NCBI RefSeq assembly: GCF_030811715.1
Contig: NZ_JAUSRH010000017.1
Span: 1-64,000 of the forward strand
DNA length: 64,000 bases
Origin: Sinomonas atrocyanea
GTDB taxonomy: Bacteria > Actinomycetota > Actinomycetes > Actinomycetales > Micrococcaceae
Reading direction: 5' to 3'
The notes beneath the pieces were generated by a model. It made no database searches and had not been told where the DNA came from. It worked only from the letters and a program-made list of their open reading frames with translations. This document shows, piece after piece, positions 25,814-43,832 of this stretch. The position numbers and the translations under genes are program-made. Numbering within the stretch: the first letter of the stretch is position 1; each line of letters opens with the position of its first letter.

Positions 25814-25817
25814 GGGC

Positions 25818-27303: not shown

Positions 27304-27337
27304 GCCGGTTCCCCAGGGCCCATGCCGGGGAACCGGC
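27304..27337. terminator. Hairpin terminator after the first aldehyde dehydrogenase
   Basis: A perfect 11-bp stem GCCGGTTCCCC / GGGGAACCGGC with a 12-base loop lies just beyond the minus-strand aldehyde dehydrogenase stop. Confidence 0.75.
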
Positions 27338-27348
27338 CGGCGGGTGGT

Positions 27349-28767
27349 TCAGCCCTTGATGATCTGGGGCTGGCCGAGGTGCTTGAGTCCTTCGACGCCG
27401 AATTCGAGGCCGTAGCCGGACTGCTTGGCGCCGCCGAATGGCACCCGGGGGTCGATGGCACCGTGCTCGTTGATCCACACAGTCCCGGCCTCGATCCGCG
27501 CAGCGACCTCGCGCGCCTTTTCGCGGTCACTGGACCAGACGGAGGCTCCGAGGCCGACCTCCAGGGCGTTGGCCATCTTCACAGCGTCCTCGATGTCGGT
27601 GTACTTGATGATCGGCAGCGCGGGGCCGAACTGCTCCTGGGCGACGAGGGGGTTGGTGTTGTCGATGTCGGCGACGAGGGTGGTGGGGTAGAAGTAGCCC
27701 TTTGCCTCCGGGTCGGGGTTTCCGCCGAGGAGGATGCGGGCGCCGGAGTCCTTGGCGGCCTGGACGAGGTCCTTCACGATCGCGTACTGCGAGGCGTTCT
27801 GGAGGGGGCCGAGGACGTTCTGCTCCTCCAGGCCCACGCCCATGGGGACGTTGGCGGCGTAGTCGGTGATGGCCTGGCAGACCTGGTCGTAGATGTCCTG
27901 ATGGACGTAGAGGCGCTTGAGCGCGGCGCAGGTCTGGCCGGTGTTGATGAACGCGCCCCAGAACAGGCCCTCGGCGATGGCCTTCGGGTCCGCGTCCGGG
28001 AGCACGATGCCGGGGTCGTTGCCTCCGAGCTCGAGGGTGAGGCGCTTGAGGGTGTCCGCGGAGGAGCGCACGATGGCCTTGCCCGTCGCAGTGGAGCCCG
28101 TGAACATGACCTTGTCCACGCCTGGGTGGCCGGCCAGGGCCTCGCCGACCTCGCGGCCGCCGGAGACGGCGGAGAGGACGCCGGCCGGGAGGGCCTCGTT
28201 GATGACCTTGACCAGGGCCAGGACGGACAGTGGGGTGTGCTCGCTGGGCTTGACGACGACGGTGTTGCCCATGCGCAGGGCGGGGCCCAGCTGCCAGACG
28301 GTGATCATCATCGGCCAGTTCCACGGCCCGATCGCGGCAACAACCCCGAGCGGGCGGTACGTCAGCACGGCCCGGGTGGTTCCATCGTCGACCACGGTTT
28401 CAGGCTCCAGCGGGGTGTCCGCGGCGGCGCGCAGCCACGCGACGCAGGCTCCGACCTCGAAGCGGGCGTTGGGGCCGTTGAGGGGCTTGCCCTGCTCGCG
28501 GGAGAGGATCCTTGCGAGCTCTTCGGCATGGGCCTCGATGGCGTCGGCAGCCTTGTTCAGCAGCGAGGTGCGCTGGGCATGCCCGAGGGCGGCCCACCCG
28601 GGCTGGGCAGCCTTTGCTGCGTCGATGGCTTCCTGGAGGTCGACGACACTGTGCTCCGGTGCCCGTCCGATGGGTTCTCCGGTGGCGGGATCGAGGATCA
28701 CGCGGCCGCCGTGGTCGGGCTGGATGGCAGTCAGCAGGGAATTGTTGAGATCAGTCTGTGCAGTCAT
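27349..28767 (-). CDS. Aldehyde dehydrogenase (succinate-semialdehyde dehydrogenase type), copy 1
   Basis: 472 residues, NAD(P)-dependent. The catalytic Glu246 lies in 'LTLELGGNDPG' and the nucleophile Cys280 in 'NTGQTC'; 'GPWNWPM' at 147-153 is the Asn-containing oxyanion motif. It oxidises the aldehyde released by amine catabolism to the acid. It shares long identical stretches with the enzyme at 37435-38847, so the two are recent paralogues. It is the last gene of a minus-strand operon with a phosphatase-like protein, an amine permease and an SDR. Confidence 0.93.
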   Translation of the reverse strand: MTAQTDLNNSLLTAIQPDHGGRVILDPATGEPIGRAPEHSVVDLQEAIDAAKAAQPGWAALGHAQRTSLLNKAADAIEAHAEELARILSREQGKPLNGPNARFEVGACVAWLRAAADTPLEPETVVDDGTTRAVLTYRPLGVVAAIGPWNWPMMITVWQLGPALRMGNTVVVKPSEHTPLSVLALVKVINEALPAGVLSAVSGGREVGEALAGHPGVDKVMFTGSTATGKAIVRSSADTLKRLTLELGGNDPGIVLPDADPKAIAEGLFWGAFINTGQTCAALKRLYVHQDIYDQVCQAITDYAANVPMGVGLEEQNVLGPLQNASQYAIVKDLVQAAKDSGARILLGGNPDPEAKGYFYPTTLVADIDNTNPLVAQEQFGPALPIIKYTDIEDAVKMANALEVGLGASVWSSDREKAREVAARIEAGTVWINEHGAIDPRVPFGGAKQSGYGLEFGVEGLKHLGQPQIIKG

Positions 28768-28849
28768 GGTCTTTCCTTGTTGTGGGTTGGTGCTACGGCT
28801 GGCCGTGTGGGTTCGGAGAGGGCGCAGCTCGAATTGTCTGGTGGTGGCT

Positions 28850-29677
28850 TCAGTTGGCGGGCTCCTCCATCGGGGCTCGGAAGTCGATTCGTTCGTCGAA
28901 GGCGATCTGGCCGGGCTCGACGGCGATGAGACCTCCGTCGACCGGGATGACCGCGGCGTTGAGGTAGGAAGCAGCTGGGGAGAGCAGCCAGCTGATCGCC
29001 TGTCCGATCTCGCTCGGTTCGGCTGGCCGGCGGCTCGGCGCGAACGCCGTCGCCATCGCGTAGGCTTCGTCCCTGGACACCCCGACGGAGGCGCCCAGTT
29101 CGGTCATCTCCGCATCAGCCATCTCTGTGCGCGTCCAGCCGGGGCACACGACGTTGGCGCGGACGCCGAGAGGGCCGTAGTCCACTGCTACGGATTGCAT
29201 CAGCATGGTCAGGCCGGCCTTCGTGGTGTTGTAGCCGGCAATGCCGGCGGTCGCACGAAGCGCGGCCGCCGACGCGACCCCGACAATCGCGCCCCTGGAA
29301 CTGATCAGATGCGGCAAGGCGGCCCTGGCCAGGCGGAACGGACCGGTCAGGTTAGTGGCGACCATGGCGTCCCAGTCTTCATCGGAGAGTTCTCGCGCAC
29401 CGCCCGCCCGCACGATCCCGGCATTCAGGACGAGGCCGTCGAGCCGGCCGAACTGGTCGATGGTTTCGGCGACGAGCCTGTTGATGTCTGCGGGCGAGTC
29501 CATGTCTGCCACTTTCGCGATGGCGCCTGTGTGTTCGGCGACTGCGTCCAGGGCGTCGGGTCGTCGACCGCAGATGACGACTTCCCAGCCCTGGGCCCGT
29601 AGGGCGGCTGCTGTGCTGGCGCCGATGCCGCTTCCACCGCCCGTCAGGATGGCTACCTGTCGGTCCTTCGTGGTCAT
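28850..29677 (-). CDS. SDR family oxidoreductase
   Basis: 275 residues of the classical short-chain dehydrogenase family: nucleotide motif 'TGGGSGIG' at 12-19, 'NAG' at 85-87, catalytic Ser137, Tyr149 and Lys153. It reduces or oxidises a hydroxyl/keto pair with NAD(P). It lies between the permease and aldehyde dehydrogenase genes of the same operon, so it probably handles an alcohol or keto intermediate. The start is uncertain: ATG 29677 has AAGGAG 12 bases upstream, while an in-frame GTG nine bases earlier is only three from it. Confidence 0.88.
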   Translation of the reverse strand: MTTKDRQVAILTGGGSGIGASTAAALRAQGWEVVICGRRPDALDAVAEHTGAIAKVADMDSPADINRLVAETIDQFGRLDGLVLNAGIVRAGGARELSDEDWDAMVATNLTGPFRLARAALPHLISSRGAIVGVASAAALRATAGIAGYNTTKAGLTMLMQSVAVDYGPLGVRANVVCPGWTRTEMADAEMTELGASVGVSRDEAYAMATAFAPSRRPAEPSEIGQAISWLLSPAASYLNAAVIPVDGGLIAVEPGQIAFDERIDFRAPMEEPAN

Positions 29678-29753
29678 GTGCTTCACATGCTCCTTGGCTA
29701 GCAGTTCGCCCCAGGAAGGGGCCCGTTGTGCAAGGTGGCGCTCAGGCCAGGAA

Positions 29754-29773
29754 ACCGGGGAGGTGTCCCCGGT
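29754..29773. other. Small hairpin inside the operon
   Basis: ACCGGGG-AGGTGT-CCCCGGT, a 7-bp stem between the permease and SDR genes. It could be an attenuating terminator that lowers expression of the downstream enzymes. Confidence 0.4.
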
Positions 29774-29802
29774 GACCGGGGCAGCCCAGCCGCGATCCTT
29801 CG

Positions 29803-31254
29803 TCAGATGACCTCTGCTGAGTAGTCGATCTGCGGTTTGGCGCGCCCGAGCACGATGCCTGCTGCCACGACGACGGGGATCAGGATCAGCAGCCATTCTG
29901 CGGCGCCGTTGCCGGCGCCCAGCAGGGAGCCGTAGTTGTCGAAGGTGAGGTATCCGATGTAGACGAAGACCACGACCGAGAGCGCTGGGGCGATTCTGGT
30001 CGCCCACATCCCAGTCTCCTCCGGGAGACGGACGAAGAAGGCGATCACGGCTACCGAGGTGAGGATGAGGATCGTGATGAAGGCGCCGGTTCCCAGGGCG
30101 CTGAACCAGGCGAAAACGGCGAGCGGGTCGCTGCCGGCCAGCAGGAAGGCGGAGACGACTGCGGCGATCACGATGCCGTTGTAGAGCCCGGCCTTGGCGG
30201 GTGCGCCCTTGCGCGAGACGTCGGCCAGGGACGCGTGCAGCACTCCGGCCCGGCCGAGGGCGAAGAGGTAGCGGGAGAACATGTTGGTCAGGCCCAGGAG
30301 CATGGCCAGGTAGCTGGTGACGACGAGGATCTGCAGGGCCATGCTCAAGGCGTCGCCACCGCTGGCGGCGGCGAGGTCGAAGATGAAGCCGGCGGGGTCC
30401 TGGGTCGCCGCCTGCTGGACGGCATCGGTGCCGACGGCACCCCCGATGGCCCAGGTCGAGATGGCGAAGAAGAGCCCGACGAAGGCGATCACCAGGTAGA
30501 GCGCCCTCGGGATCGTCTTGCGCGGGTTGACGGCCTCCTCCGAGAAGACCACGGTTGCCTCGAAGCAGGTGAAGCAGAGGAACGCGAAGAGGAGCGCGAT
30601 GCCCAGGCCCGGCCCGAAGAGGTTGGCGGAGGTGAAGCCGGCGAACGTGAAGACGCCCCAGCCGTGCTTGGCGATGAGTGATCCGACGAGTACAGCCACT
30701 ACGGTCGTCTCACCCAGGATCAGGACTCCGAGCACCCGGACGCTCGCGTCGATCCCTCCGATGGTCAGTGCAGTGGCCGCCGCCAGCAGGACCAGGATCA
30801 GGGCGAGCGGCGGTATGTCGAGGCCGGTGAGTGTCTTGAGCAGCTGTGCTGCGAAGACTCCGAACTGCGACCACAGGCCGACCTGCAGGCTCAGGTACGT
30901 CAGGATGGCGATCCCTGCCCCGGCTGTCGCCCAGGAACGCCCGAGGCCCTTGGCGATGTAGGCCACGAATCCGCCAGCATTGGTGATGTACCGGCTCATG
31001 CGCAGGTATCCGACTGCGAAGAGGGCGATCAGCAGGGCGGTGATCGCGTAGACCAGGGGGGTGGCGGGGCCGACCGCCGCGAAGATGACGGGGCCTGCCC
31101 CGACGATGGCGGCCACCGGGGCGGCGGCGGCGACCACGAAGAAGGCCACGGCGAAGACGCCGAGCTTGTTGCGCCGGAGGTGGCCGGCCTCTGCGGGCCG
31201 GGCGGTCTGGTGCGCGTCCATGCGCGCGGCGTCCGAGTTAGTGCTTTCGAGCAT
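29803..31254 (-). CDS. APC family amine/amino acid permease, copy 1
   Basis: About 483 residues with 12-14 membrane helices. Helix 1 carries 'APVAAIVGAGPVIF', and 'YITNAGGFVAYIAKGLG' lies in the first cytoplasmic loop region. It is very similar throughout to the permease at 39764-41209, which also sits in an amine operon. Uptake of a small amine or amino acid is inferred. Its start overlaps the end of the phosphatase gene: ATG 31254 (17-base overlap) is used, and ATG 31272 is possible. Neither has a strong ribosome site, so translation is probably coupled. Confidence 0.9.
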   Translation of the reverse strand: MLESTNSDAARMDAHQTARPAEAGHLRRNKLGVFAVAFFVVAAAAPVAAIVGAGPVIFAAVGPATPLVYAITALLIALFAVGYLRMSRYITNAGGFVAYIAKGLGRSWATAGAGIAILTYLSLQVGLWSQFGVFAAQLLKTLTGLDIPPLALILVLLAAATALTIGGIDASVRVLGVLILGETTVVAVLVGSLIAKHGWGVFTFAGFTSANLFGPGLGIALLFAFLCFTCFEATVVFSEEAVNPRKTIPRALYLVIAFVGLFFAISTWAIGGAVGTDAVQQAATQDPAGFIFDLAAASGGDALSMALQILVVTSYLAMLLGLTNMFSRYLFALGRAGVLHASLADVSRKGAPAKAGLYNGIVIAAVVSAFLLAGSDPLAVFAWFSALGTGAFITILILTSVAVIAFFVRLPEETGMWATRIAPALSVVVFVYIGYLTFDNYGSLLGAGNGAAEWLLILIPVVVAAGIVLGRAKPQIDYSAEVI

Positions 31255-32116
31255 CGTCTGTCGCTCTCTCATTCAGAGGAAAGGGGTTGGTGCATTGGGC
31301 TGTCTCGCCGTCGAGCAGCCTTGTTCTGAGCGCGGTGAGGACCGGGGGTGTGATCCCGAGGCCGTGCTCGAGGTAGGAGTTGCGTGATCCCCAGGTCCGC
31401 TCCACGCTCTCCCACGCCGCTTGCAGATAGGCAGGTCGTGCTTCCATGAGCGGATCGAGCCGCTTCTTCGTGGTCGCGTCAATCGGGACAGCGCGCCCGG
31501 CCGGGGTCCGGAGGACGTACTGGTTGGCGGGCCGCGAGCTCAGGAGGTAGTCCTCGACGATGGCCGCCTCCGGGGTCCCGAGAGCGGTCAGGAGGACGGC
31601 GATGGCCCAGCCGGTACGGTCCTTTCCCGCGGAGCAGTGGACCACTGCGGGAAGGCCGCCGTGGACCAACGAGGCCAAGAACCCCGCATACGGTGCCGGA
31701 TCGTCCGCGATGTCGACGGAGTACAGCCGGATCATGGCCTCTTCCGCTCCCGCTTCCGCCACGATGGCGGCCGCCTGTTCGGCCTGCCCTCTCCGGATGG
31801 CCGTCCAGAGCGATGCATCCTGCCCCCGGCCGCCCTCGGCAGGGAGCGCCGAAGACGCGGCCCTTTGGTGCAGCCGACCAGCGGCGTCCTCGATCTCCGC
31901 CTCCCATGTCTGCCGGAGGTCGATGAAGCGCGCGCCGAATCCGTCCAGCTTCTGCCGGTCGGCCGCCGAGGCGGAGCCGAAGTGCCCGCTCCTGAAGAGG
32001 ACGCCCCGCCGGATGGCCAGGCCTCCCCCTGCCGGCATGCCGCCGAGGTCGCGGAAGTTCCGGACTCCCTCGAGCCGCAGCCCGCCGGGGGCGTCTGGGA
32101 GTGTGACCTCGTTCAT
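31238..32116 (-). CDS. Tyrosine/dual-specificity phosphatase-like protein
   Basis: 292 residues. 'VVHCSAGKDRTG' at about 160 is the CX5R phosphatase loop (Cys nucleophile, Arg), and 'GVRNFRDLGG' near the N-terminus is typical of bacterial MptpB/LipA-like phosphatases. It hydrolyses a phosphomonoester such as phosphotyrosine, phosphoinositide or a small metabolite. Being first in an operon with an amine permease and aldehyde enzymes, and opposite a kinase/phospho-lyase operon, it may act on a pathway phosphate ester; that is inference. ATG 32116 is leaderless: TAGCCT (32123-32128) ends six bases before it. Confidence 0.85.
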   Translation of the reverse strand: MNEVTLPDAPGGLRLEGVRNFRDLGGMPAGGGLAIRRGVLFRSGHFGSASAADRQKLDGFGARFIDLRQTWEAEIEDAAGRLHQRAASSALPAEGGRGQDASLWTAIRRGQAEQAAAIVAEAGAEEAMIRLYSVDIADDPAPYAGFLASLVHGGLPAVVHCSAGKDRTGWAIAVLLTALGTPEAAIVEDYLLSSRPANQYVLRTPAGRAVPIDATTKKRLDPLMEARPAYLQAAWESVERTWGSRNSYLEHGLGITPPVLTALRTRLLDGETAQCTNPFPLNERATDDARKH

Positions 32117-32357
32117 ACCCATAGGCTAAACATGGGATGCTCCGTCTAACAAGAAGACAGAAAAATAGAGTTCGAATCTCTTGTCCCAACACTGGACATG
32201 CTGTTCAATCTTTCTCAGGGGCCGGATGACGACTTCCGGACTCAGCGGTCCAGACTCTGTACGGCATGTTCAAGATCGGGATGTCCGGTGCAAGGATGTG
32301 TTCAGGACACGGGTGGCTGCCCGCGACAGCGGGGGCCCGGAAGGAGCTGGGAAGATC
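32117..32357. promoter_or_regulatory. Divergent control region of the kinase/phospho-lyase island
   Basis: 240 AT-richer bases between divergent operons. On the minus strand, TTGTTA (32147-32152), 18 bases, then TAGCCT (32123-32128) is a promoter. The hexamer TGTTCA occurs at 32202, 32267 and 32299; the first belongs to an imperfect palindrome TGGACA-TGC-TGTTCA (32193-32207). These are candidate TetR sites for the adjacent regulator. Confidence 0.5.
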
Positions 32358-32975
32358 ATGAGCGAGAACACTGACAGGCCGCTGCCGCTGCGGGAGCGGA
32401 ACCGCCTGCGGACGCGTGGGGACATCCTCGACGCGGCCGCCGTGCTCCTGGGCACGGACGGGTACGCCGAAACCACCGTTGAGGCGCTCGGCCGCAGTAG
32501 CGGGGTCTCCCGCGGCACGATCTATGCGCACTTCCCCGGCGGCCGCGAGGAGATCGTGCAGGAGGTCTACCAGCGCGTCGCCGACGCGGTGTATGTCCAG
32601 GGCGTCACGCTCAGGGAGGGCGTCGAGGACCCGGCAGCGCGGATCACGGCGCTGGCGAGGGCGCTCGTCCAGGCCACCCGGGAGCCAGAGGGCCGCTTCT
32701 ACGGGGTCATGGGCCCCGATGTGATGCCAGTCGTCTCCAAGGTGATGGGTTCGACCTCGAGGTCGTTCCAGTCCCTCATCTCGCGGGACCTCAGCGCCGC
32801 CAAGGCCGCCGGCCAGCTCCCGGAGGAGGCCCCTGTCGAAGCCCTGGCCGCCACCCTCGTAGGGGCCATACGCAACGCCGGCGCCACGGCGGCGCTCGAG
32901 CCCGAGAAGTCGGAGCAGCTCATCGAAGCGATCCGCTGGCTCGTCGACGGCCTTCTTCAACGGGCGGCGGTCTGA
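32358..32975 (+). CDS. TetR family regulator of the aminoalcohol island
   Basis: 205 residues with the helix-turn-helix at about 15-62 ('SSGVSRGTIYAHFPGGREEI') and a helical effector domain. It is the first gene of the plus-strand operon (oxidase, kinase, HbpS-like, phospho-lyase) and divergent from the minus-strand permease operon, so it probably controls both. AAGGAG lies 11 bases before ATG 32358. The inducer is probably an amine or its aldehyde. Confidence 0.9.
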   Translation: MSENTDRPLPLRERNRLRTRGDILDAAAVLLGTDGYAETTVEALGRSSGVSRGTIYAHFPGGREEIVQEVYQRVADAVYVQGVTLREGVEDPAARITALARALVQATREPEGRFYGVMGPDVMPVVSKVMGSTSRSFQSLISRDLSAAKAAGQLPEEAPVEALAATLVGAIRNAGATAALEPEKSEQLIEAIRWLVDGLLQRAAV

Positions 32976-33013
32976 CCCGCGGGCGCCCCGCCCATCAACC
33001 ATGGAGGAACGAA

Positions 33014-34141
33014 ATGTCTCAAGAGAACTATGACGTCATCGTCGTCGGCTTGGGCCCGTGGGGCTCAGCTGCCGCATGGCACCTGTCCAGCCGCGGGAAG
33101 TCGGTACTGGCGCTGGATAAGTTCACCCCGCCCCACAAGGAGGGCTCGCACGGGGGCGCGACGCGTCTGGCACGCCAGTCCAGCAGCGCCGGCGAGCAGT
33201 ACACCGCCTTCACCAAGCGGACGTTCGAGCTCTGGGACCGTGTGGCAGCCGAGACCGGGACACAGATCCTGAACCGGACCGGGACGCTGTTCGTGGGCGA
33301 GCCCGGCTCGCTGTGGTTCGACAGGACCATCGGATCCCTGCAGGCCTCCGACTTCGAATTCGAGGCCATCGAGGCATCCGCCGCGCGCCGGCGATTCCCC
33401 TGGGCCCGGATCTCCGAGGCCGAGGTCGCCGTGTGGGAGCCGAACGGGACGGTAGCGCTCGTCGAGCCGGGGATCCGCGGCCTCCAGTCGGAGGCCCGCC
33501 GCCACGGTGCCGTCCTGCGCACCGGTGAGGAGGTTCTGGGGTGGGACGAGACCCCCGGGGGCGTCCTCGTCCAGACCGACCAGGGCCGGTACACCGCAGA
33601 CAAGCTCGTGGTCGCGGTCGGATCCAGGGCCAACCACCTCCTTCAGCTGGATCTGCCGTACAAGGTCGCCCGCCAGGTTCTGGCCAACTTCCGCCAGCCG
33701 CGCCCCGCCCTTCCCGCCGTGTACTTCGCCAAGCCGCCAGGGTCCACCGAGGCGCCGGCCTACGGCTGCTCGGAGCCCAACGGGGACTGGAAGTTCTCGG
33801 TCCCCGGGAAGGAAGACTGGATCGACCCCGACGACCTCGCCCAGGACCTGCGGTCCGGGGACCTCGAGAGGATCCTCCAGGTGCTCCACGACCGGATGCC
33901 CGGCATCGACCTCGAGCCGCGGTCCACCACGGTGTGCATGTGGGCCGAAGTCGAGGACGGGCACTGGGTGATCGGCCAGCACCCCCAGTCCTCGAGGGTC
34001 ATCATCGGCACCGGCGACATGGGCCGCGGATACCGGTACGCACCCGCGGTGGGCGAGATGCTGGCGGACCACGTCGACGAGGTCCCCCGTCCCGACACCG
34101 ACCTGTTCGTGCCCTCGCGCTTCGCCGCATCCAGGGCCTAG
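33014..34141 (+). CDS. FAD-dependent amine oxidase (N-methyl amino acid oxidase family), copy 2
   Basis: 375 residues. The FAD motif is 'VVGLGPWGSAAAWHL', followed by 'GSHGGATRLAR' and 'VCMWAEVEDGHW', whose Cys aligns with the covalent flavin Cys of monomeric sarcosine oxidase. 'GTGDMGRGYRYAPAVGE' replaces the usual GHGxKF motif, so its substrate may differ from sarcosine. It could remove N-methyl groups from, or deaminate, the amine fed to the next gene's kinase. GGAGGAA lies close to ATG 33014. The next gene starts 11 bases on. Confidence 0.87.
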   Translation: MSQENYDVIVVGLGPWGSAAAWHLSSRGKSVLALDKFTPPHKEGSHGGATRLARQSSSAGEQYTAFTKRTFELWDRVAAETGTQILNRTGTLFVGEPGSLWFDRTIGSLQASDFEFEAIEASAARRRFPWARISEAEVAVWEPNGTVALVEPGIRGLQSEARRHGAVLRTGEEVLGWDETPGGVLVQTDQGRYTADKLVVAVGSRANHLLQLDLPYKVARQVLANFRQPRPALPAVYFAKPPGSTEAPAYGCSEPNGDWKFSVPGKEDWIDPDDLAQDLRSGDLERILQVLHDRMPGIDLEPRSTTVCMWAEVEDGHWVIGQHPQSSRVIIGTGDMGRGYRYAPAVGEMLADHVDEVPRPDTDLFVPSRFAASRA

Positions 34142-34152
34142 CGGAGCACACC

Positions 34153-35106
34153 ATGACCACGACCACCATTTCCGAGCACGAGCTCGAGATCATCCGCACG
34201 ATCCTCTCCGCCGCCCCGGGATGGACGGACATCACCGCATACCCGCTCTCCGGCGGGAACGCGCATAAGAACTACCGGGTCGAGAGCAGCGACCGCAGCT
34301 GCGTCGTGAAGGTATGGAACAACTACTGGACCTCAGTCGGAGTATGTCCCGAGGCCGAGGTGGTCCTCCAGAACTCGAGGACCGCCGCAGAAGTGGGAGT
34401 GGGAGCTCCCGTGATCGCGGTGTCGACCGAACCACCCGGCATCGGCCTGGACTTCCTCACCGGCGGCCACCCACGGCTGCAGGAGGACCCTGACGCCGTC
34501 GAGAGGCTGGTCCCCGCACTCAAGCGCCTCCACAACTCCGGACGCCGTTTCGCCAACGCAGTCAATCCCTTCGAGGTCGCCCGGGAAAGGTTCGCCGCCG
34601 CCCGTGCCCGCAGCATCCCATTCCCCGCCGGCTTCGAGGTGATCGAGCGCATCATCGACCGCCTCGAGCACACCCTGGCCCTCGACCCCGCAGCGTTCGT
34701 CCCGTGCCATCTGGACATCTGGGACGCCAACATCGTCAAAGCCACACCCTCGGGGCCCTACCGCATCATCGACTGGGACCTCAGCGGCAACTCCGACCCC
34801 GGGTACGAGCTCGGCTTCGTCGCCGCGTTCAACGGCTTCGACCCCGAGAGGTCACAAGCCCTCTTCCAGGCCTACTTCGGCAGCGCGAACCCCGTAGCGC
34901 TGGCCCGCGCCAGGCTCTTCATGACGGTCGCCCACTGGTCGAACTGCGCCCTGTGGATCACCGCCTTGGGCAACACCGACCCCAACGAAGGCTCGGACTT
35001 CGAAGGCGAACTCCGGACCAGCTGGGAGGGGCTGCTCACCAGCGTCACCACAGCCGACTTCCACCACGCCATCGCGCAGGCAGCCAAGCCCGGCGCCCTG
35101 GTCTAG
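34153..35106 (+). CDS. Aminoalcohol kinase-like phosphotransferase (choline/ethanolamine kinase, APH fold)
   Basis: 317 residues. The glycine-rich loop '[11 protein letters not shown]' lies at 33-43 and Lys53 ('VVKVW') is the ATP lysine. The Brenner motif 'HLDIWDAN' has His186, Asp188 and Asn193, and 'IDWDLSG' supplies Asp207/Asp209 for Mg. This matches choline/ethanolamine kinases and hydroxylysine kinase better than antibiotic-resistance enzymes. With the phospho-lyase homologue downstream, it probably makes the O-phosphate of an aminoalcohol. GGAG precedes ATG 34153. The substrate is inferred from context only. Confidence 0.82.
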
Positions 35107-35176
35107 GCCCCTCTGCCAATGCCTCGGCCCCCGGGCCGGCACCACATCTGATCATCACAGCTCAAGGAGTACCCAA

Positions 35177-35575
35177 ATGACGGACATCTCTCTCAACGAA
35201 GCCCAGGAGGTGCTCCAGGCCGCGCACGAAGCGGCCTTGGAAGCGCAGACCAACATGAACATCGCGGTGGTCGATGCAGGAGGAAACCTGAAGGCCTTCA
35301 CCCGGATGGACGGGGCCTGGCTCGGCAGCATCGACATCGCGGTGAAGAAGGCTCGGACGGCACGCTACTTCGATATGCCGACCGGAGACCTCGGCGCCCT
35401 CTCCCAGCCCGGAGAGCCCCTCTTCAACATCGAGGTCTCCAACGGCGGCCTCATCACCTTCCCCGGGGGGATCCCGCTGCTCAAGGACGGCGCGGTCATC
35501 GGAGCGATCGGAGTCAGCGGAAGCACGGTCGAGGACGACCACTCCGTCGCAAGCGCAGGCGCGGCGGCGCTCTGA
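35177..35575 (+). CDS. HbpS/GlcG (DUF336) family protein
   Basis: 132 residues, a complete single domain with '[21 protein letters not shown]' near 26 (shown as the family's first conserved block) and '[19 protein letters not shown]' near 95. Related proteins bind haem or cobalamin or occur in glycolate, propanediol and amine catabolic operons (PduO C-terminal type). It lies between the kinase and phospho-lyase genes, hinting at an accessory role in that pathway. AAGGAG precedes the ATG by seven bases. Confidence 0.88.
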
Positions 35576-35655
35576 GCACCGGCGCGGTGACCGGCCCGCT
35601 CCAGGCGCCGGTCACCGCCGCCCACCGCACTTCACCCTTCACCCTGAGGAAAGCC

Positions 35656-36981
35656 ATGACACTCGAAACCACCGCAATCCAGACAACCGGGGCGCCCCCG
35701 GAGCACTCCCTGCTGGAAAGGCGGGGAAGGACCCTCGGCAGCCACTCCCCGCTGTTCTACACAGAGCCGCTGGAGATCGTTGAGGGAGAGGGCGTCTGGG
35801 TCCGCGACGCTGCAGGGAAGACCTACCTCGACGTCTACAACAACGTCCCACACGTGGGACACTCCAACCCGGCGGTCCGCGAAGCCATCGCAGCACAGCT
35901 GCTCAAGGTCAACCTGCACACCCGCTATCTGCACAGCCGTGTAGTGGAGTATGCAGAGAAGCTCCTTGCGACCTTCGACGAGCCCCTCGACCGCGTCTTC
36001 TTCACCAACAGTGGATCGGAGGCGAACGAACTCGCCCTGCGCATCGCCAGGCAGCACACCGGAAACACCGGAATCCTGATTTCCGACCACAGCTACCACG
36101 GCAACACCACCACCCTGGCAGAACTGACCACCGCGCTCAGGGTGAAGGAACCACTCGGTCCACATGTGCGGACGCTGACCATCCCGGACGCCTACGGACT
36201 CACCTCCGCCAAGGAGAAACGGCTCCTTGCACAGGGACTCACCGAGGTCGACGCGGCCATCGCCTCCCTCGAAGTGAGCGGACACGGGCTCTCAGCGATC
36301 CTGTTCGACCCCATCTTCTCCACCGAAGGCCTGTTGAAGACCCCCCGCGGCTACATCGAGGCCGTCGCAGAGCGGGTCCACGCTGCAGGCGGTCTGGTCG
36401 TCGCCGACGAAGTCCAGTCAGGATTTGGGCGCATCGGAGCCCACATGTGGGGGCACCAGGCCTACGGAACGACGCCCGATCTGGTCACCCTCGGCAAGCC
36501 CATGGGCAACGGCCATCCCGTCGGTGCAACCGTGACATCCGCCGCCCTCATGGACGAGTTCGGCGAGAACAACACCTACTTCAACACCTTCGCCGGGAAC
36601 CCAGTCTCTGCCTCTGCCGCCCTGGCCGTCCTGCAGGTCATGGAAGACCACAACCTACTGGACAGCACCCGGCGCCTCGGACGGTTCATCAACCGCGAAC
36701 TCCGCGCACTCGCCCTAGGCAATCCGCGCATCAAGAGCGTCAGGGGAACCGGCCTGTTCTTCGGCCTCGAAATCGTCAGGCCGACCGACTCAGAGCCAGA
36801 TCCCGAGACCACCAAGGCGATCGTCGAAGACCTCCGCAACAGAGGAGTCCTCATCGGCCGAATCGGCCGCCACGACAACGTGCTGAAGATGCGGCCGCCC
36901 ATCGTCTTCGAACGCCAGCATGCCGAGATCATGCTGGACCGCGTCCGACTTGCTCTGGAAGCCCAAGGCGTAGCCGACTGA
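35656..36981 (+). CDS. Class III aminotransferase homologue, probable aminoalcohol-phosphate phospho-lyase
   Basis: 441 residues, PLP-dependent. 'FTNSGSEANELALRIAR' and 'VVADEVQSGFGR' (Asp251) are class III hallmarks, and Lys281 in 'LGKPMGNG' is the Schiff-base lysine. At 60-69, 'VYNNVPHVGH' replaces the usual aminotransferase sequence; the Asn-Asn-Val-x-His-Val-Gly-His form is what I know from ethanolamine-phosphate and phosphohydroxylysine phospho-lyases and an Arthrobacter phospholyase. Expected reaction: O-phosphoethanolamine or a homologue to aldehyde, ammonia and phosphate. TGAGGAAAG precedes ATG 35656. Ordinary transamination is the alternative. Confidence 0.82.
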   Translation: MTLETTAIQTTGAPPEHSLLERRGRTLGSHSPLFYTEPLEIVEGEGVWVRDAAGKTYLDVYNNVPHVGHSNPAVREAIAAQLLKVNLHTRYLHSRVVEYAEKLLATFDEPLDRVFFTNSGSEANELALRIARQHTGNTGILISDHSYHGNTTTLAELTTALRVKEPLGPHVRTLTIPDAYGLTSAKEKRLLAQGLTEVDAAIASLEVSGHGLSAILFDPIFSTEGLLKTPRGYIEAVAERVHAAGGLVVADEVQSGFGRIGAHMWGHQAYGTTPDLVTLGKPMGNGHPVGATVTSAALMDEFGENNTYFNTFAGNPVSASAALAVLQVMEDHNLLDSTRRLGRFINRELRALALGNPRIKSVRGTGLFFGLEIVRPTDSEPDPETTKAIVEDLRNRGVLIGRIGRHDNVLKMRPPIVFERQHAEIMLDRVRLALEAQGVAD

Positions 36982-37063
36982 CACGCCGTGCATGGCCTGG
37001 TGATGCCCCGCCGGCTTGGGAACGATGAGCGAGCCCCAGAGACATACAGCCAGAGGAGCGACC

Positions 37064-37288
37064 ATGATGGAACAGACAAGCCCTCGGCATCCAGCCCTGA
37101 GACGGCGAGGCTGCTGGACACCGAGCGTCGGCGACCGAGTCGAGCTGCGCAAGGGCAAGACAACGTTTCAGGCCGGACAGGTCGAGACCGTCATGCCTGA
37201 TAATTCCGGGTTCTGGATCGCGCCTGAAGGGGTCGGCCAGCGCCGCTACGTCTTGGTCGGAGATGACTCCTTCGAGATCTGGGCCTAG
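37064..37288 (+). CDS. Small conserved protein, paralogue of the protein at 16044-16277
   Basis: 74 residues. The N-terminal 20 are basic; the rest is one compact domain: 'VGDRVELRKG', Phe-x-Ala-Gly-x-Val, Pro, Ser-Gly-Phe-Trp-Ile, Arg-Arg-Tyr, and a final 'FEIWA'. The spacing of Gly, Phe-Trp, Arg-Arg and the terminal Glu-Ile/Val matches the other small protein, so they are homologous. AGAGGAG sits seven bases before the first of two adjacent ATGs. It follows the phospho-lyase gene and may be its last operon member. Confidence 0.65.
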   Translation: MMEQTSPRHPALRRRGCWTPSVGDRVELRKGKTTFQAGQVETVMPDNSGFWIAPEGVGQRRYVLVGDDSFEIWA

Positions 37289-37434
37289 CCCTGCGACGGC
37301 TTCCAGAGAGAGGTCCCAGTCGGCCTCAGAGGATGACATGGGGCGCCTTCTTTGGCATATCGGAAGGCGATGACGGCACCAGGCCGGACCGTCCGACGAC
37401 GGCGCACGGCCCGGTGCGAGGCCTCTCCCCCGGG

Positions 37435-38847
37435 TCAGCGGCTGATGACCTTGGGGGCGGCGACCGCCTTGAGGCCGGCGACGCCGAATTCCTGCCCGTA
37501 GCCGGACTGCTTGGTCCCGCCGAAGGGCACGTCCGGGTTGAGGGTGCCGTGCTGGTTGATCCACACGGTTCCGGCCTGGATCAGCTTGGCGACCGCCACG
37601 GCGGCATCGATGTCATCGGACCAGACAGAGGCGCCTAGCCCCTGCTCGGAGGCATTGGCGCGGCGGATCGCGTCGTCGACGTCGGTGTACCTGATAACGG
37701 GGATGGCGGGCCCGAACTGCTCCTCGTCCACGAGACGCGAGCCGTCCTCGATGTCAGCGACGACGGTGGCCCGGTAGAAGAGGGGCCCGAGTTCGGGAGC
37801 GGGCTCGCCGCCGGCCACGATGCGGGCGCCACGGGCGCGGGCGTCGTCGACGAGGTCCTTGACGATGTCGAACTGGCTCTGGTTCTGCAGCGGGCCGAGC
37901 ACATTCCCGCCCTCCAGGCCGGGCCCCATGGGCAGTGCGCGGGCCAGCTCGGCGAGGGCCTCGACCACGTCGTCGTAGACGGAGTCATGGACGTAGAGGC
38001 GCTTGAGCGCGGCACAGGTCTGGCCGGTGTTGATGAAGCACCCCCAGAACAGGTTCTCGGCGATCGCCTGGGCATCGGTGCCGGGAAGGACGATGCCCGG
38101 GTCGTTCCCGCCGAGCTCGAGGGTGAGGCGGGCGAGGTTCTGGGCCGATGAGGCGACGATCTTGCGTCCGGCCTCGGTCGAGCCGGTGAACATGATCTTG
38201 TCCAGTCCACGGTGGGCGGCGATCGCGGCGCCGACCTCCCTGTTGCCGGACACCACGGTGAGGACGCCCTCGGGCAGGTGGCGGTTGAAGATCTCGGCGA
38301 GGGCGAGGACCGACAGCGGGGTGAAGCTGCTCGGCTTGGCCACCACCGTGTTGCCCATCCGCAGCGAGGGGGCGATCTGCCAGACCGTGATCATCATCGG
38401 CCAGTTCCACGGTCCGATGGCCCCGACGACGCCGAGGGCGTCGTAGTGCAGCTCGGAGCGGGCGCCGCCTGCCTCGAAGACGACCTCGGGTTCGAGGACA
38501 GTGTTCGCCGCGTTGCGGGTCCACACCGCGCAGGCGCCGACCTCGAAGCGGGCGTTGGGGCCGTCGAGGGGCTTGCCCTGCTCGCGGGAGAGGATGCGGG
38601 CGAGTTCCTCGAGGTTGGCCTCGAGGTCGTCCGCGATGGCGTTGAGGATGCGGGACCGCTCCGCGTGGCCGAGCGCGTTCCAGGCTGGCTGGGCGGCGCG
38701 GGCGGCGGTGATCGCTGCTTCGAGGTCGTCGAGCCCGTGGACGGGCGCGTGCCCGATGATCTCGCGGGTCGCTGCGTCCGGGATGGGGCGGCCGTGGCCT
38801 TCTGGGACGGTGATGGCGTTGAGGATCGACGTCGTCGTCGTGGTCAT
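37435..38847 (-). CDS. Aldehyde dehydrogenase, copy 2
   Basis: 470 residues; Glu244 in 'LTLELGGNDPG', Cys278 in 'NTGQTC', 'GPWNWPM' near 145. Large blocks are identical to the enzyme at 27349-28767, for example around the nucleophile and the cofactor domain, so this is a paralogue. AGGAG precedes ATG 38847 by seven bases. It closes a minus-strand operon APC permease, MoaF-like protein, aldehyde dehydrogenase, consistent with oxidising aldehydes produced by the neighbouring monoamine oxidase. Confidence 0.93.
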   Translation of the reverse strand: MTTTTTSILNAITVPEGHGRPIPDAATREIIGHAPVHGLDDLEAAITAARAAQPAWNALGHAERSRILNAIADDLEANLEELARILSREQGKPLDGPNARFEVGACAVWTRNAANTVLEPEVVFEAGGARSELHYDALGVVGAIGPWNWPMMITVWQIAPSLRMGNTVVAKPSSFTPLSVLALAEIFNRHLPEGVLTVVSGNREVGAAIAAHRGLDKIMFTGSTEAGRKIVASSAQNLARLTLELGGNDPGIVLPGTDAQAIAENLFWGCFINTGQTCAALKRLYVHDSVYDDVVEALAELARALPMGPGLEGGNVLGPLQNQSQFDIVKDLVDDARARGARIVAGGEPAPELGPLFYRATVVADIEDGSRLVDEEQFGPAIPVIRYTDVDDAIRRANASEQGLGASVWSDDIDAAVAVAKLIQAGTVWINQHGTLNPDVPFGGTKQSGYGQEFGVAGLKAVAAPKVISR

Positions 38848-38888
38848 GGTGGTCTCCTGTGGTGCTCTCTTCGGGGTTCGCCTGCGGG

Positions 38889-39704
38889 TCATTCGGCCGG
38901 GTACGGGGTGTCGTCGAGGATGGTGAACTGGCTGTCGAAGGGCAGGTGCACGGTGTCCAGGGTCGGCCCGTCCCAGCAGAACATCCGCCCGATGGAGCGG
39001 GCGTTGGCCAGGTCGATGACGACGATCGACTCGACCGGCATGACGGTCTCGCTCCAGTGGAGGAGGACGAGGCCGTCGGCGAGCTCGAAGACCTGGATGG
39101 GGTCTGCGTCGGCGAGGCCCACCTCGCCTCCCTTGACGCAGTGCCAGACGAAGGTGCCGGAGTTGAGGTAGATGTGCTCGTAGTGCTCGGTCGGGCTGTA
39201 GCGGTAGTAGATCCGCTTGCCGACGAGTTCGCTGGTGCGCTTGCGGGGCTCGATCTCGCCGGTGCCCGTGACGCGGCCGGAGAGGATCCCGGTCTGCAGA
39301 CGGACCTTGCCGTCGCGGTCGACGAAGGACGAGTCCGCGACTGTCACCCGCCCGTCCGACTGGTCGATCACCATGGAGACGTCACTGGCGTGGACGCCCT
39401 CGCCCTTGACGAAGTCGACGAAGAAGATGCCCGGGCGCACCTCCACGGCGCGGTAGGGATGGGTTCCCGACTGCCCGGTGCCCTTCCCGTCAGTGATCGT
39501 CCAGGTGATCTGTCCGTCGGCGAACGTGTGCTCGATCGTCCAGCCGTTCTCGAAGCGGACTTCGATGGGAGCTCCTTCGAGGCCAGCGCTGGCCGGCAGA
39601 CTGGGCTCGCCGAAGCCGTCGAGCATCATCGTGACGTCGGGCCACTGGTCGGTGGGGACGTAGCCCTGCTCGGTCGGGGAGAGCTGCTGAGGGGTGGTCG
39701 GCAT
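38889..39704 (-). CDS. MoaF domain protein
   Basis: 271 residues, beta-rich with no signal peptide. Two lipocalin-like halves are visible: about 40-150 ('VRFENGWTIEHTFADGQITW') and about 160-270 ('RIYYRYSPTEHYEHIYLN'), matching the N- and C-terminal MoaF domains. MoaF is known from the monoamine-inducible moa operon of Klebsiella; its biochemical role is not firmly established, but a fold that binds small hydrophobic ligands is plausible. Its place between a permease and an aldehyde dehydrogenase supports a monoamine pathway. AAGGA precedes the ATG. Confidence 0.82.
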   Translation of the reverse strand: MPTTPQQLSPTEQGYVPTDQWPDVTMMLDGFGEPSLPASAGLEGAPIEVRFENGWTIEHTFADGQITWTITDGKGTGQSGTHPYRAVEVRPGIFFVDFVKGEGVHASDVSMVIDQSDGRVTVADSSFVDRDGKVRLQTGILSGRVTGTGEIEPRKRTSELVGKRIYYRYSPTEHYEHIYLNSGTFVWHCVKGGEVGLADADPIQVFELADGLVLLHWSETVMPVESIVVIDLANARSIGRMFCWDGPTLDTVHLPFDSQFTILDDTPYPAE

Positions 39705-39763
39705 GGGAGTTCCTTACGTTGGTGGTTCTGCAGAGGAGTGTTGGGACTAGGGGGCGGACCCGG

Positions 39764-41209
39764 TCAGCCGCCGGCGGTGGCGATGCGGTCGAAGTCGATG
39801 TCCTTCTTGAGGAGCGGGAGGACCGCCCCGGCGGCGAAGGCCACGGGGATGGACCACAGCAGCTGCCTCGCGATGGAGCCGTCGCCGGAGAGCATCGCGT
39901 CGTAGTTCGCGATCGCGATCACCAGGACGGTGACCATGAGCACGACCGAGGCGGCCGGGGCGACCCGAGTGCTCCAGAATCCGCGCTCGAGCTTCTCGCG
40001 GATGAAGAAGACGAGGATGGAGACAGAGGCGAAGCCCATCATGACGATGAAGCCCACGGTGCCCAGGGCGACGAACCAGGAGAAGACGACCACGATCGGA
40101 TCGGCCCCGGACCAGAGGAAGGCCATGAGGATCACGGCGATCACCAGTCCGTTCACCAGGGCCGCGGCGGCGGGGACCTGCGACTTCTTCGACACCCGCG
40201 AGAGCGGCTTCGGCAGAGCCCCTCCCCGGGCGAGGGCGAAGACGTAGCGGGAGAACATGTTCTGAATCCCGATGAGCATCGCGATGAAGCTCGAGACGAC
40301 CAGGACCTGCATCGTGATGTCCAGCCACGGCCCGACGTACTTGGCGGCGACCGAGAAGACAATCCCGGCCAGGTCGTTTGCCGCAGCGTCCTGGACCTTG
40401 TCCGGGCCGACCGCCACGCTCACGGCCCACGTGGCCACGGTGTAGAAGATGCCGACGAAGATGATCACCGCGAACAGTGCGCGGGGAATGGTCCGACGAG
40501 GCTCGCGGGCCTCCTCCGCGAAGACGGTCGTGGCCTCGAAGGTCGTGAAGCAGGCGAAGACGAACAGCACCGCCACGCCGAGCCCGGGCTGGACCAGCTG
40601 GGACGGGGCGAAGCTCACCAGCGACATGTCCTTGCCGCCCGATCCCGCCACGATCCCGATGATCAGGGCGGCGATGGCAATGACCTCCAGGACCAGCAGT
40701 ACCCCGAGGATGCGCAGGTTCAGGTCCACTCCGCGCATGGTGAGCGCGGTGGTGATGATCAGGAACCCGAGCACCCATCCCCACACTGGCAGGTCCACGC
40801 CGAACAGACGCGAGGCGAGCTGCTGCGCGAATACCGCGAACTGGGCCCACAGCCCCACCTGGAGCGAAACGTACGTGACGATCACGATCCCGGCAGCGCC
40901 CGTGGCCGCGCGCCGTCCGAGGCCGCGCGAGATGTAGGCGACGAAGCCGCCCGCACTGACGATGTGGCGACTCATCTTCAGGTAGCCGACCGCGAAGACG
41001 GCGATGATGAGCGCGACCAAGACGTAGACGAGCGGGACGCCCGGACCCATGACGGAGAAGATCACCGGGCTCGCCCCCACGAATGCCGCCATCGGCGCCG
41101 CGGCGGAGACCACGAAGAAGGCGATTCCGATGCAGCCGAGGCTGTTGGACTTCAGTCGTGTCTCGCCGATGGACGGCGGCACCACGACCTCGTGCTGGGT
41201 ATTGCTCAT
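39764..41209 (-). CDS. APC family amine/amino acid permease, copy 2
   Basis: 481 residues and 12-14 membrane helices. It aligns end to end with the permease at 29803-31254 (for example 'GGFVAYISRGLGRRAATG' here). It is the first gene of the MoaF/aldehyde dehydrogenase operon; AAGGAGG lies five bases before ATG 41209. Import of a monoamine is inferred from the operon. It is divergent from a TetR gene, and the operator candidate at 41333-41340 lies between. Confidence 0.9.
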   Translation of the reverse strand: MSNTQHEVVVPPSIGETRLKSNSLGCIGIAFFVVSAAAPMAAFVGASPVIFSVMGPGVPLVYVLVALIIAVFAVGYLKMSRHIVSAGGFVAYISRGLGRRAATGAAGIVIVTYVSLQVGLWAQFAVFAQQLASRLFGVDLPVWGWVLGFLIITTALTMRGVDLNLRILGVLLVLEVIAIAALIIGIVAGSGGKDMSLVSFAPSQLVQPGLGVAVLFVFACFTTFEATTVFAEEAREPRRTIPRALFAVIIFVGIFYTVATWAVSVAVGPDKVQDAAANDLAGIVFSVAAKYVGPWLDITMQVLVVSSFIAMLIGIQNMFSRYVFALARGGALPKPLSRVSKKSQVPAAAALVNGLVIAVILMAFLWSGADPIVVVFSWFVALGTVGFIVMMGFASVSILVFFIREKLERGFWSTRVAPAASVVLMVTVLVIAIANYDAMLSGDGSIARQLLWSIPVAFAAGAVLPLLKKDIDFDRIATAGG

Positions 41210-41332
41210 GGGTCCTCCTTTGGACCTGCTGCCCTGTGCGGGCGAGAGATTGTGGGACGCCTCGTCGGGGGCGAGTGCCGAGGCTGCAAGCTGGGCGTCC
41301 GATGCGGAATGGGATCCCTGGACCCATATTGA

Positions 41333-41345
41333 GCATCTGCTTAGT
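41333..41345. promoter_or_regulatory. Operator candidate, GCA-N2-TGC type
   Basis: GCATCTGC (41333-41340) followed by TTAGT, in an AT-rich island within GC-rich DNA. The same GCA-N2-TGC core, once also followed by TTAGT, occurs twice before the paralogous TetR gene at 43833. Confidence 0.55.
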
Positions 41346-41418
41346 GATAGAGATTACGAGCGCCCCTGAGGGGTGTCAAGGGGGTCTGCCAGAGCCCGGG
41401 ACCGCCTAAGCTGAACCT

Positions 41419-42006
41419 GTGAGCCGCGAGAAACGACAGCCCAGTCATGGAGAGGGCAGGGAAGCGCTCCTCGAAGCGGCGGTGCGGGTCGGTGCCCGCA
41501 AGGGCCTGCGCGGGCTGACCTTCCGCGCCGTGGCCGAGGAAGCCGGCCTGAACAACAGCCTCATCGCCCACCACTTCGGCACCCGGGACAGGCTGCTCGC
41601 CGCGGCGCTCGAATGGACAGTCGACCGCCTGATCGGCGCTGCCGACCTCAGCGAGTACGCGACCGACTCCACTGCCTTCCGCGAGGCCCTCATTCGGAAC
41701 GTCCTGTCCCAGCCCGACATCGAGATCTTCCAGTTCGAGATGGTGATCGAGGCAACGCGGAGGCCCGAGCTCCAGGAAGCAGTCCGTGAGCTCTACGGCC
41801 GCTACGTGGCCGCCCTGGCCGCCGGCCGCACCGCTCTCGGAGCCGAGGACAACCCCGGCCTGAACCGTGCCATGTTCGCTGCCTTGGACGGACTCACCCT
41901 CCAGTACTTCTGCAGGGCGATCACCGCAGAACAGCTCTCCGAGGCGGTCGAGGCACTGGGGGTCGCCGTCGGCGGCCCCGTCCGAGACGCGCGGCTGGCG
42001 CCCTAG
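41419..42006 (+). CDS. TetR family regulator (monoamine island, paralogue 1)
   Basis: 195 residues with the helix-turn-helix at about 20-65 ('EEAGLNNSLIAHHFGTRDRL') and an effector domain ending in 'FAALDGLTLQYF'. The next TetR in the island has the same recognition-helix pattern (NNSLIAHHFG / NNTLISHHFG) and C-terminal motif, so they are paralogues. GTG 41419 is leaderless: TAAGCT (41407-41412) ends six bases before it. It probably controls the divergent permease/MoaF/aldehyde dehydrogenase operon. Confidence 0.9.
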   Translation: MSREKRQPSHGEGREALLEAAVRVGARKGLRGLTFRAVAEEAGLNNSLIAHHFGTRDRLLAAALEWTVDRLIGAADLSEYATDSTAFREALIRNVLSQPDIEIFQFEMVIEATRRPELQEAVRELYGRYVAALAAGRTALGAEDNPGLNRAMFAALDGLTLQYFCRAITAEQLSEAVEALGVAVGGPVRDARLAP

Positions 42007-42040
42007 CCTGCCCAAGGGCCCAGCCGAGGGGCGGGGGCCG

Positions 42041-43339: not shown

Positions 43340-43354
43340 CTCGCTCGGGCCCCT

Positions 43355-43690: not shown

Positions 43691-43760
43691 CATCGCTCCT
43701 TTGCGAGGGGAAGGGCCGGTCACCTGTGGACGTGGCCCGTATCACTACGCCCACTACTCT

Positions 43761-43802: not shown

Positions 43803-43832
43803 TTTTTGTGCGCGCGCCGGTAGCATCGACCC

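Follow-up and report, generated by a model that had tools for sequence, protein, structure and literature searches.

The 64,000-nucleotide stretch of Sinomonas atrocyanea DNA analyzed here (contig NZ_JAUSRH010000017.1, positions 1 to 64,000; hereafter, the window) carries a gene cluster at 32358-37288 in which a putative amino-alcohol kinase (KIN) and a pyridoxal phosphate (PLP)-dependent phospho-lyase (LYA) stand beside an N-methyl amine oxidase (NMAO). A first-pass annotation had read the cluster as possibly an undescribed variant of a kinase and phospho-lyase route for amino-alcohol breakdown. All the genes it named are present in the places it gave, including the HbpS-like protein between the kinase and the class III enzyme, the small protein lacking a family match, and the phosphatase on the opposite strand; its interval coincides exactly with the span from the TetR start to the small protein's end. 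The six genes of the interval lie on the plus strand, and four further genes lie upstream of TetR on the minus strand. Identities below refer to related clusters in three other genomes, G002, G182, and G227.
27349-28767, minus strand: aldehyde dehydrogenase ALDH1 (PF00171), proposed to oxidize the aldehyde made by the lyase
28850-29677, minus strand: short-chain dehydrogenase/reductase (SDR; PF13561), also in the divergent arm of G002, G182, and G227
29803-31272, minus strand: APC-family permease, probable substrate uptake (97% identical in G002, 67% in G182 and G227)
31238-32122, minus strand: Y_phosphatase3-type phosphatase (PF13350, 184.5 bits)
32358-32975, plus strand: TetR-family regulator (PF00440, 50.7 bits, cut-off 24)
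33014-34141, plus strand: NMAO, N-methyl amine oxidase, proposed N-demethylase (NF008425, 265.5 bits, cut-off 257)
34153-35106, plus strand: KIN, APH/choline-kinase-like kinase (PF01636 APH, 56.1 bits, cut-off 23.2)
35177-35575, plus strand: HbpS/GlcG-like protein (PF03928, 138.6 bits, gathering score 25)
35656-36981, plus strand: LYA, class III PLP-dependent phospho-lyase (604 bits to PDB 5g4i; alternative GTG start at 35587)
37064-37288, plus strand: small protein, no Pfam match (alternative TTG start at 37016)

The order TetR-NMAO-KIN-HbpS-LYA, together with the divergent phosphatase-permease-SDR arm, is kept in four genomes of two genera (that of the window, G002, G182, and G227). The five operon proteins are 94-96% identical in G002 and 61-80% identical in G182 and G227, which belong to the other genus; for operon and divergent arm together, the ranges are 84-97% and 51-80%, respectively. 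A relative of ALDH1 directly follows LYA in G182 and G227. Searches of 345 genomes of the family, with up to five or six first-look candidates scored per genome, found relatives of NMAO (E ≤ 1e-60) and of KIN (E ≤ 1e-20) in the same four genomes. Because the same order recurs in three further genomes and the two proteins share this distribution, the arrangement is not a product of chance.

LYA matched the PDB chain 5g4i with 604 bits, 6tor (an ethanolamine-phosphate phospho-lyase, which we take to be the human enzyme) with 311 bits, and the best transaminase with 170 bits. The 5g4i chain is AAur_pTC20101 of Paenarthrobacter aurescens TC1 plasmid pTC2, as confirmed over 446 residues, and LYA is 62% identical to it over 437 residues (A1RDF1 is presumably a name of the same TC1 protein). 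An NNV-x-H-VGH loop is a feature of the phospho-lyase family; LYA has NNVPHVGH at residues 62-69, and among 40 lyase loci, the window included, the variable position of NNVP-x-VGH is His in 28 and Gln in six. Lys281, in a GKPMGNG stretch, is invariant in all nine aligned sequences and, judging by the family, would bind PLP. Translation likely starts at ATG 35656 rather than at GTG 35587 because close relatives have MT(L/S)ET there. A tree of 40 lyases with an outgroup served to identify neighbors only, as the outgroup branch was too long for rooting. The phospho-lyase assignment of the first-pass annotation thus stands: on the PDB scores the enzyme groups with phospho-lyases, not with true aminotransferases. 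By sequence, LYA is a new member of a characterized family, and its lyase chemistry is already known, given its 62% identity to the crystallized TC1 phospholyase 5G4I.

The proposed choline/ethanolamine-type kinase was borne out in part. KIN passed the cut-off of the APH model and matched 3dxq, of the choline/ethanolamine kinase family, among PDB chains (E 8e-14), but fell below the gathering score of the choline kinase model PF01633 (19.7 versus 29). Its catalytic motifs HLDxWDxxN and IIDWD are invariant in the four sequences aligned, and its AlphaFold model has a mean predicted local distance difference test score of 51. We propose that KIN phosphorylates the hydroxyl of an N-methyl amino-alcohol.

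The company kept by KIN ties it to demethylation. We compared 46 LYA loci, 27 of them in family genomes, another three in the same genus, and 16 on plasmid records; 28 family genomes have LYA, and one (G156, where the gene lies at a contig end) was left out. All 46 loci have a kinase gene no more than 11 kb from LYA. KIN is that kinase at five, and at every one of these an N-demethylase is found within 11 kb (NMAO at four, a GcvT-domain flavin enzyme at one). The kinases of the other 41 loci are also of APH type but differ from KIN and are related to one another; a single one of these loci (L091) has a demethylase-like match within the same distance. The association gives a Fisher p of 4e-6 when shared ancestry is ignored; the five KIN-bearing loci come from roughly two lineages, and Burkholderia, which has KIN but no LYA, adds a third. 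In Burkholderia cenocepacia, relatives of NMAO (53%) and KIN (37%) are adjacent. The HbpS-like protein and Y_phosphatase3 occur at all four NMAO/KIN/LYA loci and at none of the 42 other LYA loci, and G002 carries both kinase types. A KIN match was present in 22 plasmid records, from which three neighborhoods were taken by that match; two scans of genome contigs with KIN yielded no confirmed relative. A phylum-wide LYA search of 396 genomes (E ≤ 1e-115) recovered only the window's own genome, a weak negative given that four first-look candidates were scored per listed genome.

NMAO exceeds the cut-off of NF008425 and falls under that of TIGR01377 (210.9 versus 479.65 bits). It keeps Arg54, Lys260, and Cys308; where monomeric sarcosine oxidase has His345 and Lys348, NMAO has Arg338 and Arg341. 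Among the aligned residues we assume the Cys to be the site of covalent flavin attachment and the Lys to activate O2; Lys348 of sarcosine oxidase is presumably a carboxylate ligand. Both altered positions are Arg in all five kinase-linked oxidases, whereas His and Lys occupy them in all five other oxidases aligned, namely the window's second oxidase DAO2, which has the same GHG-x-K motif as ordinary relatives, and four chosen from 136 plasmid records.

Genes for one-carbon (C1) disposal are found beside these genes in three relatives; in the window the cluster has no such neighbors. Downstream in G182 is a mycothiol formaldehyde dehydrogenase (S-(hydroxymethyl)mycothiol dehydrogenase; 667 bits, cut-off 513). 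Burkholderia has FrmA (S-(hydroxymethyl)glutathione dehydrogenase; 628 bits, cut-off 544) and FrmB (S-formylglutathione hydrolase; 477 bits, cut-off 282) about 5 kb from KIN. Sinorhizobium chiapasense has FolD (483 bits, cut-off 396), PurU (337 bits, cut-off 286), an electron-transfer-flavoprotein-like gene, and a sarcosine-oxidase-alpha/GcvT-type flavin demethylase beside KIN; the flavoprotein-like and demethylase genes match below curated cut-offs, whereas the dehydrogenases, the hydrolase, FolD, and PurU match above them. C1-disposal genes of three kinds in three relatives suit a step that releases formaldehyde or methylene-folate, and they point indirectly to formaldehyde release by NMAO. 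The first-pass suggestion that an upstream amine oxidase feeds the route is therefore supported by conserved order, co-occurrence, and these C1 genes; as for its demethylation-first order, phosphorylation may instead come first.

Reasoning from gene content, gene order, and families, and from the C1 and arylacetate genes of relatives, we infer the following reactions, their substrate, and an order in which the kinase acts first, then the oxidase, then the lyase. The permease would import the amine and KIN would phosphorylate its beta-hydroxyl. NMAO, a flavin oxidase, would then act, probably on the phosphorylated compound, and release its N-methyl group as formaldehyde. LYA would use PLP to eliminate phosphate from the resulting primary amine, giving an enamine that hydrolyzes to an arylacetaldehyde and ammonia. 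ALDH would oxidize the arylacetaldehyde to the arylacetate, and central phenylacetate or homoprotocatechuate routes would finish it. That a kinase and a phospho-lyase work here with a coupled N-demethylation seems to us probable. We give about an even chance to the reading of the whole as an operon for the catabolism of an N-methylated beta-hydroxy amine, the likeliest being an N-methyl-beta-hydroxy-arylethylamine of the synephrine, halostachine, or adrenaline type.

The action of KIN before NMAO is suggested by the pairing of KIN with N-demethylases and by the alteration of the oxidase's anion-binding residues to Arg; our confidence in it falls just short of even. Together with the proposed binding of the phosphate by NMAO through Arg338 and Arg341, this early action of KIN is the least secure step. 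The converse order, in which NMAO acts on the free amine, KIN phosphorylates the primary amino-alcohol, and LYA follows, is possible, at a probability we set clearly under one half. Relatives of monomeric sarcosine oxidase generally act on free secondary amines, and the genes of the operon stand in the order oxidase, kinase, lyase. However, such a demethylation would yield the same primary amino-alcohol that ordinary kinase-lyase clusters handle, so that the usual kinase would suffice; the kinase differs in all 41 of those clusters, and G002 keeps both. The Arg residues that kinase-linked oxidases carry at the anion-binding Lys and the neighboring His also speak against demethylation first. 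The most specific form of the proposal, in which adrenergic-type amines are phosphorylated first and the phosphate does double duty, as a tag for an arginine-rebuilt oxidase pocket and then as the leaving group for the phospho-lyase, is doubtful.

The suggestion of an aryl substrate comes from the neighborhoods of the lyase clade. From 1906 plasmid records with a match, 16 lyase loci were chosen by rank and organism spread, with flanks of 9-15 kb. (Of the 30 records listed, H4, H5, H10-H12, H14, H17, H19-H21, H26, H27, H29, and H30 were left out, and H23 was covered by L039, for which another 25 kb, L096, was read.) At 12 of the 16 there are phenylacetate, homoprotocatechuate, or tyramine genes. 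In strain TC1, hpaE, hpaD-like, hpaH-like, and hpaI genes lie within about 13 kb of the lyase; one aldehyde dehydrogenase adjoins the hpa genes and another directly follows the phospholyase, the two being 82% identical to each other and ALDH1 74% identical to both. Mesorhizobium AR07 has the order permease-LYA-kinase-paaX-pcaF-paaABCDE-paaZ, Phyllobacterium the order ALDH-tyramine oxidase-TetR-permease-LYA-kinase-SDR, and Sphingobium a LYA-kinase pair about 6 kb from homoprotocatechuate 2,3-dioxygenase; in Rhizobium binae and six further rhizobial records, LYA and the kinase lie within an hpa operon. The S. chiapasense block comprises an SDR, a permease, a monoamine oxidase, ALDH, C1 genes, the demethylase, KIN, TetR, ALDH, and LYA; paaX, pcaF, paaABC, paaE, and paaZ adjoin it, paaX being separated from KIN by about 15 kb and from LYA by about 18 kb. 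Within the family, G284 has the order LYA-kinase-TetR-SDR-permease-PaaI-like-PaaK-like-TetR-paaZ, with PaaK and PaaI just below cut-off. No arylacetate gene was found at the other four plasmid loci (Pseudomonas L042, Ruegeria L045, Chelatococcus L047, and Microvirga L048), and three of these lack the His of the NNVPHVGH loop. In seven of the 28 family genomes with LYA, hpaD, paaA, or a copper amine oxidase gene lies within 25 kb of it, as against about 1.2 expected under uniform placement with contig ends ignored (eight sub-cut-off hpaD matches, none within 25 kb of LYA, were omitted). An aryl beta-hydroxy amine appears to fit this comparative evidence better than the aliphatic substrates first proposed, and we slightly favor an aromatic substrate.

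Several observations weigh against this pathway. The aromatic link rests on relatives, because the window's contig (the 64 kb and the following 19.7 kb, L037) has no paa, hpa, or tynA match, generic aldehyde dehydrogenases aside. The 35-40 kb read in each of G002, G182, and G227 likewise has none, except for a weak 26% PaaE-like match. The window's genome carries hpaD and paaA on other contigs; hpaD occurs in 25 and paaA in all 28 of the genomes, so mere presence is uninformative. Seven of the 12 aromatic plasmid neighborhoods are one conserved rhizobial operon, and Ruegeria L045 has the same loop as LYA and no arylacetate genes in its neighborhood. Only six of 23 other family loci have tynA, hpaD, or paaZ within about 10 kb of LYA and 17 have none (generic aldehyde dehydrogenase, thiolase, and flavin-reductase genes and a 23% HpaB-like match were not taken as markers), and four of the seven family genomes with nearby markers belong to one genus and have the copper amine oxidase only. 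The Burkholderia NMAO-KIN pair lacks a phospho-lyase, its class III neighbor being ArgD-like, and near a remote KIN relative in Nonomuraea (L043, 28%) there is no NMAO and no LYA. Neither the window nor the stretches read from G002 and G227 contain a counterpart of the G182 mycothiol formaldehyde dehydrogenase. The exchange of Lys for Arg in NMAO could serve another carboxylate. Finally, O-phosphoethanolamine was reportedly the substrate in assays of the TC1 phospholyase, which keeps aliphatic substrates plausible.

An aliphatic version would start from N-methylethanolamine, N,N-dimethylethanolamine, or methylated 1-amino-2-propanol, derived from choline or industrial amines, and yield acetaldehyde or propanal, formaldehyde, ammonia, and phosphate through KIN, NMAO, and LYA. 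The C1 genes and the chemistry suit this version just as well, both solved kinases matched by KIN are of the choline/ethanolamine type, LYA is homologous to ethanolamine-phosphate phospho-lyase, and its TC1 relative is known as a phosphoethanolamine phospholyase. Against this, we noticed no ethanolamine-specific gene in the annotated neighborhoods read, ALDH1 resembles the aldehyde dehydrogenase beside the TC1 hpa genes, and arylacetate operons recur beside the lyase clade. We consider this version unlikely. The substrates named by the first-pass annotation (ethanolamine, 1-amino-2-propanol, and hydroxylysine) are less well supported than an aryl amine on the same grounds, as we saw no pointer to them in the neighborhoods read; ethanolamine itself is probably not the substrate.

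An NMAO directed at some unrelated N-methyl amino acid or amine, sharing only its regulation with a general amino-alcohol kinase-lyase pair, is quite improbable. Relatives of solA and sarcosine oxidase are common (the 136 plasmid records above), and the window has a second one at 25818-26948, but the shared distribution of KIN and NMAO relatives, their adjacency in Burkholderia, and the different demethylase beside KIN in Sinorhizobium argue otherwise. That LYA is a true aminotransferase in an ordinary amine transamination route, as its class III fold and Pfam Aminotran_3 match would allow, is scarcely credible and was rejected on the PDB scores (604 bits to the phospholyase, at most 170 to any transaminase), the loop and the invariable nearby kinase pointing the same way.

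Further genes accompany the lyase at some of the loci. An Amidohydro_3-type gene lies near LYA at 10 of the 46 loci (L028, at 14584-16152, and L023, L031, L076, L080, L082, L086, L091, L092, and L094; L023 is in G002 and one is in G227), with Pfam confirmation in two, so the route may be fed by amide-linked precursors. Three different phosphatase families are represented beside the kinases (Y_phosphatase3 in the window, HAD-IA in Rhizobium, and histidine phosphatase in Burkholderia); we speculate that they recycle dead-end phosphates. In the rhizobial hpa clusters (L046 at 5710-10269, and L104-L109), the lyase is immediately preceded by another class III enzyme and a Tm-1-like ATP-binding protein and, where annotated, by a HAD hydrolase as well. 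A class 1 integron with blaVIM-2 lies a few kilobases from a kinase-lyase pair of the loop-variant clade on a plasmid of Pseudomonas shirazica (L042, 8883-18439).

The cluster is flanked in the window by further genes. Downstream, ALDH2, a MoaF protein, a second permease, and a monoamine oxidase lie on the minus strand, with a second TetR gene on the plus strand between the last two.
25818-26948, minus strand: DAO2, second N-methyl amine oxidase-like flavoprotein, peripheral (NF008425, 249.3 bits, just below the cut-off of 257)
37435-38892, minus strand: aldehyde dehydrogenase ALDH2 (PF00171, 461 bits; 61-63% identical to the TC1 aldehyde dehydrogenases)
38889-39704, minus strand: MoaF-family protein (PF17409/PF10703; relative in G182, 45%)
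39764-41209, minus strand: second APC-family permease (PF00324/PF13520)
41419-42006, plus strand: second TetR-family regulator (PF17940/PF00440; relative in G182, 42%)
42041-43339, minus strand: flavin monoamine oxidase-like protein (PF01593, 214.7 bits)

The interval 37435-43339 resembles a neighboring monoamine module; relatives of its MoaF, permease, and TetR genes recur near the G182 cluster (L027), and its monoamine oxidase has relatives in the KIN clusters of Burkholderia (39%) and Sinorhizobium (34%). DAO2 adjoins ALDH1. No close DAO2 relative was found in G002 (L023), which carries a second APH kinase and an amidohydrolase on that side of ALDH1 instead; the matches to DAO2 over threshold in the other stretches searched are NMAO genes only (26-28%). 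The small protein occurs twice in G002 (L023, 5673-5861 and 15833-16054), beside ALDH1 and after LYA, and a different small protein lies 3′ of ALDH in G182 and G227 (L025, 5938-6186; L028, 5363-5593). The first APC permease resembles an annotated one at L044 (35%), and the first TetR has a relative beside the TC1 phospholyase (57%). The SDR matched general SDRs only among the best 60 of 254 PDB matches; for ALDH1 the top PDB match was 8yen, with phenylacetaldehyde dehydrogenase 4o5h tenth, a ranking from which the substrate is not readable. GC content is 67-68% at the operon and 67-73% over the whole window. A common inverted repeat was looked for upstream of TetR as a shared operator, and none was found. 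A tRNA-Ser(gga) called by ARAGORN (35555-35632, minus strand, 78 bases) overlaps the HbpS/LYA junction and was rejected as a false positive; the three relatives have none, and no Rfam match reached its gathering score within 24000-44000. The N terminus of an open reading frame at 46509-49121 matches the HipA N-terminal domain (42 bits).

The kinase, the phospho-lyase, and the amine oxidase are, to judge from their sequences, new members of known families, and their conserved N-demethylating combination is the new part. In line with the first-pass suspicion of an undescribed pathway variant, among the matches listed in our literature search, which covered titles and the starts of abstracts and few subscription journals, we found no description of this combination, its likely substrate, or such genes. 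We know of no assigned genes for bacterial breakdown of such amines by a dehydratase-type reaction. Octopamine, synephrine, adrenaline, and related drugs, which are beta-hydroxylated and often N-methylated aryl amines, reach soil and water. Were the proposed pathway correct, it would have a named gene set, a widespread lyase-kinase pair would be given a different probable substrate, and an unusual oxidase that recognizes a phosphorylated amine would be predicted. Were the phosphorylation-first route for adrenergic amines also correct, many bacterial "phosphoethanolamine phospholyases" would act on aryl beta-hydroxy amines, and genes would be in hand for reactions long known only as the net activities of octopamine and synephrine dehydratases.

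Among known systems, the TC1 cluster is closest. Its phospholyase AAur_pTC20101 (PDB 5G4I and 5G4J) shares the NNVPHVGH loop and has a kinase, TetR, permease, SDR, and ALDH nearby; unlike the window's cluster, it stands beside hpa genes and lacks NMAO, the KIN-type kinase, the HbpS-like protein, and Y_phosphatase3. ETNPPL/AGXT2L1 and 5-phosphohydroxylysine phospho-lyase belong to the same family as LYA and probably share its 1,2-elimination, whereas LYA is found in a bacterial operon with its own kinase and an N-demethylase and probably has an aryl substrate. PbfA, the (R)-1-hydroxy-2-aminoethylphosphonate ammonia-lyase, is also a class III PLP enzyme and catalyzes a 1,2-elimination on a beta-hydroxy amine; it releases water (PMC8154272) rather than phosphate, and with 199.8 bits LYA stays well below the cut-off of 525 for PbfA. 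NMAO is of one family with monomeric sarcosine oxidase and N-methyltryptophan oxidase, with the flavin Cys, the Lys, and one Arg aligned, and differs from the former in the Arg pair common to the kinase-linked oxidases. The best NCBIfam match of KIN is the guanitoxin-biosynthesis kinase GntI (NF041256), at 100.1 bits far under the cut-off of 357. Octopamine and synephrine dehydratases (EC 4.2.1.87 and 4.2.1.88), to which, as far as we are aware, no genes have been assigned, convert aryl beta-hydroxy amines to an arylacetaldehyde and an amine without ATP. The route proposed here would accomplish the same net reaction, but in an ATP-dependent manner and with the methyl group removed as a C1 unit.

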